Source of the DNA: Saccharothrix deserti
GTDB taxonomy: Bacteria; Actinomycetota; Actinomycetes; Mycobacteriales; Pseudonocardiaceae
Length of the DNA stretch: 64,000 nt
Assembly: GCF_009769385.1 (NCBI RefSeq)
Contig: NZ_VKAB01000001.1
Span: 496,001 to 560,000, forward strand
Direction of reading: 5' to 3'
In this document: positions 4,552 to 60,933 of the stretch, one piece after another
Position numbering within the stretch: the first letter of the stretch is position 1
Layout of the letters: every line of letters begins with the position of its first letter
Translations under genes and position numbers: made by a program
The notes under the pieces: generated by a model
Database searches by the model: none
What the model saw: the letters and a program-made list of their open reading frames with translations, nothing else
What the model was told of the DNA's origin: nothing

Positions 4552-5130
4552 GTGTCCGAGCCACGCCGTCGCCCCGGTGGTCGCAGCGCCCAAGTACGCG
4601 CCGCCGTGCTGGAAGCCGGCCTCGCCGAGTTGGCGGCGGTCGGCTACCACGGCACGAGCCTGGAAGGCGTGGCCAAACGGGCGGGCGTCAACAAGACGAC
4701 CCTCTACCGCCGGTGGGGTACGCGGGAGGCCCTGTTGCTCGACGCCATCCGCGCCCGAGCGACCACCGAGGTGCCCATCCCGGACACCGGGGAGCTGCGT
4801 GGCGACCTGCTGGCCCTGGTCCGGGACGCGATCCGCAACCTGACCACGGTGGAAGTGCAGGCCATGGTGCGAGTGGCCGTCGCGCTGTCCCCGCACGACG
4901 AGGCGGTGGCCGCCATCAGCCGGACGTTCTGGGCCGAACGCCTGGCCGTGGACGCTGAAGTGGTCCGGCGTGCCGTGGAACGCGGCGAGATCGACCCGGT
5001 CGACCCGGAGCACGTGATCGAGGCGGTGCTCGGGCCGCCCTACTTCCACCTGCTGGTGACCGGCCGGCCGGTCGGCGACGACTTCCTCGTCGCCACCGTG
5101 GACCTGGTGGTCCGCGGCCTCAGACGGTGA
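4552..5130 (+). CDS. TetR/AcrR-family repressor
   Basis: 192 residues. The N-terminal TetR helix-turn-helix covers about residues 10-57, with the typical segment GVNKTTLYRRWG. The C-terminal ligand domain is divergent. I chose the GTG at 4552 because AAGG lies 8 nt upstream; the open frame continues far upstream, but that extension is unlike the family and overlaps the antisense SDR gene. It is divergent from the exported SDR and flanked by two GCAAC-N5-GTTGC sites, so it probably regulates that gene and itself. Its 3' end overlaps the convergent oxidoreductase by 11 bp. Confidence 0.88.
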   Translation: MSEPRRRPGGRSAQVRAAVLEAGLAELAAVGYHGTSLEGVAKRAGVNKTTLYRRWGTREALLLDAIRARATTEVPIPDTGELRGDLLALVRDAIRNLTTVEVQAMVRVAVALSPHDEAVAAISRTFWAERLAVDAEVVRRAVERGEIDPVDPEHVIEAVLGPPYFHLLVTGRPVGDDFLVATVDLVVRGLRR

Positions 5131-7289: not shown

Positions 7290-7310
7290 GCGGGCACTCT
7301 AACTGTGACA

Positions 7311-7436
7311 TGGCCGCTGCTCCGCAGACGGCGGCTCGGTCGCCCGGGAGGTCGACCGCTCGCGCCTGATTTCCCGACGATCGAAAAGCGTGATCGCCGG
7401 GAAATGAGTCGCGAACGATCGACGGCGACCTCGCGG
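7311..7436 (+). repeat. Dispersed structured element, copy 1
   Basis: Contains nested inverted repeats. A 5' hairpin (GCCG 7313-7316 with CGGC 7329-7332, inner TGC/GCA, loop TCC). An outer stem GGTCGCC 7338-7344 with GGCGACC 7424-7430. A third stem GTCGA/TCGCG (7351-7364) with CGCGA/TCGAC (7410-7423). A central stem of 13 bp with one mismatch (7370-7382 with 7392-7404) around loop GAAAAGCGT. The same plan recurs near 16.5, 56.3 and 60.8 kb. It lies between divergent genes. Confidence 0.75.
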
Positions 7437-7500
7437 GTAGCAGCTGCCCGCTCCTAACCTCTGTCACCCGCACCGCCACCACTCGACCAGGATGGTGAGC

Positions 7501-16423: not shown

Positions 16424-16468
16424 GCTGTCCTCGCCCCGATCGACACCAACCCGGCGGCAGTGTTTCAT

Positions 16469-16590
16469 TGCCTCGGCTCCGCCTCGGCAGCGAGGTCGCC
16501 CGAAAGTCGGCAGTTCGAGCCCTGATCCCGCGACGATCGAAAAGCGTTGTCGCCGCGGGGTTGAGCCTCGACCTACCGACGCGACCTCGC
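16469..16590 (+). repeat. Dispersed structured element, copy 2
   Basis: Same plan as copy 1 with different stem bases. A 5' hairpin TGCC/GGCA with inner GGC/GCC around loop TCC (16469-16489). An outer stem GCGAGGTCGC 16490-16499 with GCGACCTCGC 16581-16590, perfect over 10 bp. A third stem GTCGG/TCGAG (16506-16519) with CTCGA/CCGAC (16567-16580). A central stem CCCGCGACGA 16527-16536 with TCGCCGCGGG 16550-16559, one mismatch, loop containing GAAAAGCG. It lies between the divergent ABC ATPase and glgX genes. Confidence 0.75.
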
Positions 16591-16647
16591 AGTGGCGTGG
16601 CGCACTCATCCCCACACTGTCGGTGCGGGCTGGAAAGATCCCGGGGT

Positions 16648-55941: not shown

Positions 55942-56360
55942 CGCACCCCTTTGTCCCCCGGTCGCCGGATTAACGTTCGGCTCTGTGATCGCCCTTGCCT
56001 AGAGTCGGAAGTCCCGGCTTCGATCGCTCACCCGGATGGGGGCTTTCCACGATGGCGTGGCCTGGTGTGCCTGCTTTGCCGCGCCGACTGGGGTCTGACC
56101 AGCGCCGAACCGACCGGTGGGTGGCGCGTGTGTGCACAGATGCCGGCCGGTGGGTTGGGTCCGGCTCGCTGGCAGGTCCGTCGTGGGGGCGTGGTCAGGT
56201 GACCACCGCGCGAGGTCGCGTCGATCGTTCGCGACTCATTTTCCGGCGATCACGCTTTTCGATCGTCGGAAAATCAGGCGCGAGCGGTCTGCCCCGCCGC
56301 GGAGCGGCGCAATCGACTACAGCCAGGCGACCGAGCCCGCCGTCTGCGGAGCAGCGGCAA
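55942..56360. other. Intergenic region with no gene, holding repeat copy 3
   Basis: 419 bp upstream of the PPOX gene. The first ~250 bp (55942-56200) show no conserved frame, palindrome or repeat that I can defend. The rest is the structured element listed separately. Confidence 0.55.
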
Positions 56361-56363
56361 TTA
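56211..56363 (-). repeat. Dispersed structured element, copy 3
   Basis: Minus-strand orientation, beginning at the stop codon of the gene at 56361. 5' hairpin as in copy 1 (loop TCC). Outer stem GCGACC (56327-56332) with GGTCGC (56214-56219). Central stem TTTTCCGACGATC with GATCGCCGGAAAA (one mismatch) around GAAAAGCGT, at 56239-56273. Compared with copy 1 a C:G pair in the central stem is replaced by T:A. It carries an extra small hairpin with loop TCC (GCCGC/GCGGC near 56295-56310) not present in the other copies. Confidence 0.75.
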
Positions 56364-56870
56364 GACACTGCCGAAGATGGGCACGAGGCCCCGGTAGAGC
56401 TGGGGCGCGTGCCGCCGCAGCGCCAGGTCCAGCATCTCGCCGCCGGTGTCGTCGGCCAGCCGGACCCAGTGGCCGTGCACGCTGGTCGGGACGCTCCGGT
56501 AGGTGGCGGCGAAGGCCTGCGGGTCCACCGGCACCAGGTGGAGCCACAGCGACGGTTTGTTACCGCCGCCGCGTGCCAGCGCCACTGCGGCCAGTTCGTA
56601 CCAGGGCACGGCCCACGACGCGCCCTTCTCCTCCCAGCGCAGGCCCTGTGGTTCCACGGTGAGCCGGCGCAGCCGGGCCCGCCGTCGCCAGATGCCACCG
56701 CCGATCAAGCCGCCGACCGCCACCAGCGGACCGACGATCATGGCCGCCAGGTGGCCGTCCGCGTAGGACAGGAACATCAGCAGGATGCCGAAGAGGGTCA
56801 GGCCGAGTTGGACCGCGAGGGCGGCGCGTCGCTCGGTCCGGTTGCCGAAGGAGATCTCGATCGCGTTCAT
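56361..56870 (-). CDS. Two-helix membrane protein with a PH-like cytoplasmic domain (paralog A)
   Basis: 169 residues. Two transmembrane helices at about 18-36 and 42-60, then a basic linker (WRRRARLRRL) and a beta-rich domain with GLRWEEKGASWAVPWYELAAVAL, reminiscent of bacterial PH-like domains. It overlaps the next upstream gene as ATGA, and the two are clearly related in plan (GVRW...GAPWAVAWHELGAV there). No function is recognised. Its stop codon touches repeat copy 3. Confidence 0.75.
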   Translation of the reverse strand: MNAIEISFGNRTERRAALAVQLGLTLFGILLMFLSYADGHLAAMIVGPLVAVGGLIGGGIWRRRARLRRLTVEPQGLRWEEKGASWAVPWYELAAVALARGGGNKPSLWLHLVPVDPQAFAATYRSVPTSVHGHWVRLADDTGGEMLDLALRRHAPQLYRGLVPIFGSV

Positions 56871-60771: not shown

Positions 60772-60795
60772 TGCTGTGCCTTTCCGTGTTGGGTT

Positions 60796-60914
60796 GCCCT
60801 GGCTCCGCCAGGGCGGGCGAGCCCGCCTGGCAGTCGGTCATCCGGCACCCGTCCCAGGTCGATCGAAAGCGTGATCGACCTGGCAGGGGCACCGGATGAC
60901 CGACGCGGGCTCGC
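60796..60914 (+). repeat. Dispersed structured element, copy 4
   Basis: The most regular copy. 5' hairpin GCCCTGGC-TCC-GCCAGGGC (60796-60814). Outer stem GCGAGCCCGC 60817-60826 with GCGGGCTCGC 60905-60914. Third stem CGGTCATCCGG 60835-60845 with CCGGATGACCG 60892-60902. Central stem CCAGGTCGATC 60854-60864 with GATCGACCTGG 60873-60883 around GAAAGCGT. All four stems are perfect although their sequences differ from the other copies. It lies between the SPW-protein stop and the TetR start. Confidence 0.8.
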
Positions 60915-60933
60915 GGGCTCGTCCAGGTTGTCG

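Follow-up and report, generated by a model that had tools for sequence, protein, structure and literature searches.

Four copies of a nested-stem palindrome lie scattered in a 64,000-nucleotide stretch of the Saccharothrix deserti genome (the window), which raises the question of what kind of element they represent. The earlier note on this DNA saw selection on structure in them and left two answers, an RNA or a palindromic mobile DNA element. All four copies are found at the positions it gave and lie between genes predicted by a simple gene finder, and the differences it named between the stems of copies 2 and 4 are correct. It did not mention a TC/TC mismatch in the outer stem, an extra module in copy 3, or the extension of the repeat past the stems. 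We favor, at a probability of about 0.6, a family of small (~145 bp) non-autonomous mobile palindromic elements in Saccharothrix and some other Pseudonocardiaceae, which would be inserted by their hairpin-plus-tail end through a trans-acting enzyme.

A search of the whole S. deserti genome (G000; 10,832,261 bases in 162 contigs) with a 19-base core allowing up to two mismatches gave 44 matches, 22 forward and 22 reverse, versus none for a reversed control. The search recovers copies 1 to 3 and misses copy 4, which has a loop shorter by one base. Forty of the 44 hits were taken with their flanks; 32 were aligned, and then 24 with flanks, to yield a covariance model, R1, built from 24 copies that include copies 1, 2 and 4. 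The window copies and their parts are as follows, with strands given in the orientation used by the earlier note.

7300..7444, + strand (probable constrained strand, -): copy 1, intergenic, R1 score 147.9 bits
7303..7312, + strand: tail box of copy 1 in a variant form, read on the probable functional strand as CATGTCACAG
7313..7332, + strand: hairpin H1 of copy 1, 8 bp with loop TCC (GGA on the other strand)
7334..7344, + strand: outer stem of copy 1, first strand, with a TC/TC tandem mismatch inside
7351..7423, + strand: long inner hairpin of copy 1, with loop GAAAAGCGT at 7383-7391
7424..7434, + strand: outer stem of copy 1, second strand
16457..16600, + strand: copy 2, R1 score 115.2 bits
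Parts of copy 2: H1 at 16470-16488, outer stem 16490-16499 with 16581-16590, inner hairpin 16506-16580
56200..56371, - strand: copy 3, the form with an extra hairpin module, R1 score 104.4 bits
56289..56322, - strand: extra H1-plus-tail-like module of copy 3 (CTGTAGTCGATTGC...GGGCAG), in an asymmetric bulge, assigned by eye
60783..60924, + strand: copy 4, R1 score 120.6 bits
Parts of copy 4: H1 at 60796-60814, outer stem 60817-60826 with 60905-60914, inner hairpin 60833-60904

The repeat is ~145 nt long and has three helices, one of them nested. In the orientation of the list it begins with a box, C[AT]GTGTT-NN-AT, and continues through H1 (8 bp, loop TCC), the first strand of the outer helix, an unpaired GGAA-type stretch, and the inner hairpin with loop GAAAAGCGT to the second strand of the outer helix and a ragged end near GGTGGTC. 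Read 5' to 3', the complement carries a ragged leader, the outer helix, the long inner hairpin, an unpaired UUCC-type bulge on the 3' side, the 8-bp H1 with a mostly GGA loop, and a 12-13-nt tail, [AC]AT-NN-AACACrG. The inner hairpin is freely variable in sequence and length, and H1 occurs as several sequence types, each able to pair. The tandem TC/TC mismatch is present in most copies, including copies 1 and 3 (68 of the 104 copies with letters at that place), and an extra H1-plus-box-like module occupies an asymmetric bulge in 8 of 40 copies, copy 3 among them, as judged by eye. A loose pattern recognizes the tail box in 28 of 40 own-genome copies, and the box is weak or variant in the other 12. 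Ten copies from other genera (L190-L199) keep H1 and the overall plan with an inner hairpin of wholly different sequence. A pseudoknot between the GGA loop and the UUCC bulge was considered and rejected: most bulges contain UCC, yet copies with a GAA loop mostly retain the UUCC bulge, and therefore loop and bulge do not covary.

In its own genome, R1 finds the repeat in 46 places at a length of at least 115 nt and a score of at least 69 bits, among the best 150 candidates, with shorter relatives below. One of the 46 is a probable assembly duplicate (C21/C22), and another (C54, L041), next to a stretch of N, is decayed at one of its ends. Beyond these full-model places there are also copies with internal deletions and truncated ones. 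Four pairs of hits on contigs C21 and C22 share a constant offset of 3522 (for example, C21:103539 and C22:100017), which suggests that the assembly represents one region twice, once in each contig. Because of this overlap, own-genome counts hold at least one duplicate. The closest pair of own-genome paralogues is 97% identical, with a median of 85%.

Further copies reside in related genomes. At E<=1e-4, R1 is positive in 22 of 25 Saccharothrix genomes, the own genome included; G002, G010 and G012 are copy-free, and G011 and G017 have few copies. These match counts may include both strands of one copy as two, and G003, with 125 matches, comes close to the ceiling of 127 candidates per genome. 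Across the family, 63 of 297 genomes and 8 of 46 genera are positive at the same threshold, the 22 Saccharothrix genomes included, among the best 10 candidates per genome. Only the own genome matched out of 394 genomes of the class, the other 393 giving no match among the best 8 candidates per genome under stricter filters. The exact core pattern occurs in 52 stretches from 84,980 named species genomes, all of them from Saccharothrix (Pseudonocardiaceae), and a blastn search with one copy as query gave no match in plasmid and phage records. One viral hit (L189) was dismissed as a chance match to a coding-looking stretch that lacks H1 and the outer stem. The covariance-model search thus bears out the dispersed family that had been proposed. 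Near relatives can carry very different numbers of copies: R1 gives 41 matches in G015 but 2 in G017, which are read as a single copy seen on both strands, and the hisH sequences of the two are 94% identical over the query.

Evidence for covariation is strong. In the 24 copies, 20 of 48 pairs are altered on both sides, giving 54 such cells versus 13.3 +/- 3.5 after shuffling, and sliding the partner by 1-3 columns lowers the proportion of paired cells from 92.5% to 26-49%. In a larger alignment of 108 distinct rows, drawn from several species, double changes affect 35 of 46 pairs and amount to 447 cells versus 115 +/- 8 in shuffled alignments and none of 500 shuffles as high; this alignment was fitted to the model, which favors the structure, and its rows are related, such that the counts are not probabilities. 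Given how large the effect is and how the slid controls behave, chance is untenable. The claim of selection on structure is upheld. All 108 rows were used for covariation. Three palindromic reverse matches were dropped for the ortholog-pair comparison described below, and these together with duplicate sequences were removed to give the 105 copies used for counts of strand, stability, loop and bulge, end profile, and stacked tails.

The mispaired positions have a strand preference. On the strand of the earlier note, the 105 copies hold 166 A.C cells, 15 G.T cells and 191 others, with four positions supplying 125 of the 166 A.C cells. Columns mispaired in at least three copies number 8 for A.C versus 0 for G.T (sign test, ~0.008). 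An A.C mispair on one strand is a G.U pair on the other, and the TC/TC mismatch seen in the outer stem of 68 copies becomes a tandem G.A when the complement is read. Whether RNA or DNA parameters are used, the complement folds more stably in 86 of 105 copies. The constrained or functional strand within Saccharothrix is probably the complement of the one that was read. Ten copies from other genera do not show the asymmetry, the complement being the more stable strand in 5 of them. The direction of replication or transcription is unlikely to be its cause, since copies are equally numerous on both strands, but the asymmetry could also come from a mutation bias on one strand while it is exposed in single-stranded form.

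A strongly conserved structure is also a feature of regulatory or structural non-coding elements, and the repeat could be a 3'-UTR hairpin, a terminator, or a nucleoid or gyrase site that is selected where it stands and spreads only rarely by recombination. Several sites are common to different species, which agrees with such a role, and several stop codons of neighboring genes fall inside the variable part of the tail, as seen by eye. Convergent gene pairs outnumber divergent ones when all rows are counted, duplicates and other species included (34 convergent, 21 divergent, 35 tandem); four loci gave no element position in this survey. However, the 40 own-genome loci comprise 13 convergent, 11 divergent and 13 tandem arrangements plus 3 with one side uncalled, and the repeat overlaps a predicted gene by more than 10 bp in 2 of the 40. 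No run of U follows H1, the last hairpin, the sequence there being the tail described above, and T occurs at some positions of the G-rich other end. Because the context is inconsistent and H1 lacks a U-run, a terminator or fixed 3'-UTR role is not our main reading.

At a few loci the tail touches the start of a gene. In L155 (~5080-5130) it overlaps or abuts a gene start and ATGACACAG serve as start codons, and in L015 and L033, where the tail is likewise at a gene start, ACACAGGAG before the ATG resembles a ribosome-binding site.

Matched loci in other genomes bear on the same alternative. The place of copy 3 was searched with R1 in 17 loci, of which only the window's own was positive; the adjacent gene was matched in 11 of the 17, own included, and the other 6 were located by its neighbor only, so that copy 3 is present in 1 of the 11 loci with the adjacent gene matched. 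Among 25 genomes compared at hisH, a full copy (156 bits) occurs in one, G017. The corresponding region of G016 has an internally deleted copy in the opposite orientation (61.5 bits), and G004 has an opposite-orientation remnant (25 bits, by eye). Two further matches are weak: that in L214 (26.5 bits) lies in the gap and appears by eye to be another palindromic repeat, and that in L216 (37 bits) is several hundred bases off. The remaining 20 of the 25 hisH loci yield no R1 match at E<=0.01. In L212 and L214 (G008 and G007), the region upstream of hisH is filled by a different repeat with GCGAGTCGTA..CACGCC units in both orientations.

The target-site duplications that the earlier note proposed to look for at copy boundaries are absent from the one junction compared base by base, that at hisH, where by eye ~15 bp of target in G009, G015 and G022 are replaced in G017 with no duplication. 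At the place of copy 1, another species has a remnant plus an opposite copy (L167), and at the place of copy 4 another has a copy of a different subtype (L154). Of 21 orthologous element pairs, 15 have the same orientation (9 sites) and 6 the opposite one (5 sites, copy 1 counted twice), where a locus with no element is one with none in the 108-row alignment and L023 is a misaligned nested copy. Element identity in these pairs is 0.65-0.93 versus a flank identity of 83-95%, the element being less alike in 20 of 21. Part of this gap is due to the flanks, most of whose sequence is coding and should be better conserved than an element between genes. Sharing between species is over-represented because loci were fetched for carrying elements. 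Some sites are common to different species, and therefore part of the family is old.

Turnover at favored intergenic sites is the simplest reading of these orthologous sites. Regulatory elements held in place by selection fit poorly with sites that are empty or occupied in the opposite orientation and with common internal deletions, and we consider this explanation unlikely. Of the two answers first offered, the mobile palindromic element is favored by presence and absence between species, whereas a fixed RNA gene is not.

The repeat has a clear polarity. In the 105 copies, the tail end is sharp to 12-13 nt, and conservation at the other end tapers off over 8-9 nt. On the 5' side of the complement there is no conservation past ~9 nt within the 26 nt examined, and thus no conserved promoter there. 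Truncation is one-sided as well. H1 modules, classed by regular expression and then by eye in 54 of 56 hits, comprise 32 full copies, 11 internally deleted copies and 11 without the other end, two of the latter (C4:94803 and C1:391568) being remnants stacked beside a full copy. All 40 core-bearing copies retain H1, and mirror-image truncations, with the other end but no H1, were not found using one 22-base pattern of limited reach. This pattern, for the functional 5' end, fits only copies with an extra G, and at up to 3 mismatches its hits are mostly chance (91 versus 54 for the reversed control). With no more than 2 mismatches there are 26 hits, 7 of them beyond known copies; the five of these that were read are not elements, one duplicates another, and the last is L289.

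Old tails also accumulate on one side. In 13 of 105 copies, or 12 of 104 once the misaligned L023 is set aside, an old tail with the orientation of the copy directly adjoins its tail end. The three other arrangements give 0, 0 and 1 of 105, with chance at ~0.017 for each. In L123 (~1640-1740), a full copy is followed by tandem units of ~41 bp, each made of H1 and a tail. Insertion by the H1/tail end with a loose other end would give the sharp and ragged ends, the one-sided truncation and the same-side tails together. Separately, deletion of an unstable long palindrome could produce the truncation, and slippage duplication could produce the stacked tails.

This polarity also brings to mind a structured RNA, transcribed from the complement strand and copied from its tail end by a trans-supplied reverse transcriptase, in the manner of a SINE. 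Such a process gives copies truncated at the 5' end and stacked tails, and both are seen, the former on the 5' side only and the latter in the same orientation. A sharp 3' end with a ragged 5' end is likewise in keeping with this scheme, as are shared mispairs that on the complement are G.U rather than A.C and are joined by tandem G.A pairs. The missing conserved promoter on the 5' side (26 nt examined), the missing duplication at hisH, and the lack of strand asymmetry in other genera speak against it, and so does the distribution of candidate enzymes.

We compared 720 predicted proteins near copies all against all, and within these short flanks no transposase or reverse transcriptase is shared among the 25 largest clusters. 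These clusters are ordinary cellular genes, and an autonomous parent element was rejected on this basis. Of the 11 H1 hits in which no second end was recognized, read for 150 nt each, three appear by eye to be internal deletions, two lie beside another copy, and the others adjoin sequence in which no transposase was visible. RVT_1 is detected in 10 of 25 Saccharothrix genomes and Y1_Tnp in 5 of 25. The 15 genomes without an RVT_1 hit include G003, G009 and G015, and those without Y1_Tnp include the same three and G018; thus G003, G009 and G015 are copy-rich yet have hits to neither. Neither enzyme is associated with copy number, and both were rejected as the mobilizer. With RVT_1 lacking a hit in so many genomes of the genus, a reverse-transcribed RNA of this kind is an improbable explanation.

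The second enzyme class is relevant to a REP- or BIME-like element moved by a RAYT or another Y1 transposase that acts on a single strand. The repeat resembles such elements in its intergenic palindromes, its hairpin with a conserved single-stranded box, its strand-specific folding, and the occurrence of some head-to-head pairs (L090 and L053, for example). But it has no GTAG or CGTC tag, and Y1_Tnp is confined to the few genomes mentioned. The own genome has a single Y1_Tnp (within G000:C5:139504-142869, L049), which by eye lies beside a divergent TnpB-like ORF, and two stretches around it contain no H1-like hairpin and one AACACAG, inside the transposase ORF. Taken with these points, movement by a Y1 transposase is very unlikely.

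Under the preferred reading, that of a mobile palindrome entering new sites by its hairpin-plus-tail end, a trans-acting enzyme would recognize the folded part made of H1, the outer helix and the tail, and would join the tail end to new DNA. The moving strand could be single-stranded DNA or RNA, and the other end would be closed loosely by illegitimate or homologous repair. Loose closure would explain the lost target bases, the truncated copies, and the old tails beside newer copies. The family adds a structured, mobile-looking repeat to those of actinomycete genomes and is a source of intergenic polymorphism between Saccharothrix species. Its polarity, together with the missing Y1_Tnp and RVT_1 hits in several copy-rich genomes, makes it a tractable case for studying how bacterial repeats without an evident transposase spread.

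The view that the repeat matches no described family has held in the searches made. The window has 0 Rfam matches at the gathering score, and six loci searched at E<=1 have 13, all to miRNA hairpin models and below threshold. Full-text literature searches turned up no Saccharothrix or Pseudonocardiaceae repeat of this plan.

Several known systems share some of its features. The attC sites of integrons, which have R''/R' core boxes at their two ends, resemble the repeat in folding from a single strand into a hairpin whose unpaired bases are conserved and whose terminal hairpin varies. Compared by eye with a consensus, the repeat seems to have no matching R and L boxes at its second end, and no cassettes were seen. 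Like prokaryotic MITEs, the repeat is short, non-coding, dispersed and presumably mobilized in trans. Unlike them, it has ends, CTGTGTT... and ...GGTGGTC, that are not complementary and form no terminal inverted repeats, and it lacks a target-site duplication at the one junction inspected by eye, at hisH. A few head-to-head composites (L090) do have inverted ends.

The repeat also resembles in habit the REP/BIME/REPIN elements served by RAYTs, which are likewise small intergenic palindromes present in tens to hundreds of copies and often paired or stacked. As outlined in one account of these elements, they are also non-autonomous and fold as a single strand (PMC3733652). The GTAG/CGTC REPs described there are hairpins of 20-40 bp tagged by GTAG or CGTC (PMC3733652), whereas the Saccharothrix repeat is ~145 nt long with nested stems. 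It is not a REP of that type: in place of the tag it has the box C[AT]GTGTT-NN-AT, and, unlike a GTAG REP with its RAYT, it is abundant in several genomes that gave no Y1_Tnp hit.

Eukaryotic SINEs and non-LTR elements have a precise 3' end, a ragged or truncated 5' end and short repeated tails, and we know of no bacterial counterpart of SINE-like elements. The repeat differs from them in that many host genomes gave no RVT_1 hit, although a reverse transcriptase may have been present in the past, and in the lack of a target-site duplication at one junction. It is distinctly unlikely that the family constitutes such a counterpart, an enzyme-less structured RNA that would be copied back from its tail end, with new copies overwriting old ones at favored intergenic sites. 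What the repeat does share with SINEs and non-LTR elements is a constant 3' end, truncation from the 5' side (11 of 54 H1 modules), and a structured, RNA-like strand.
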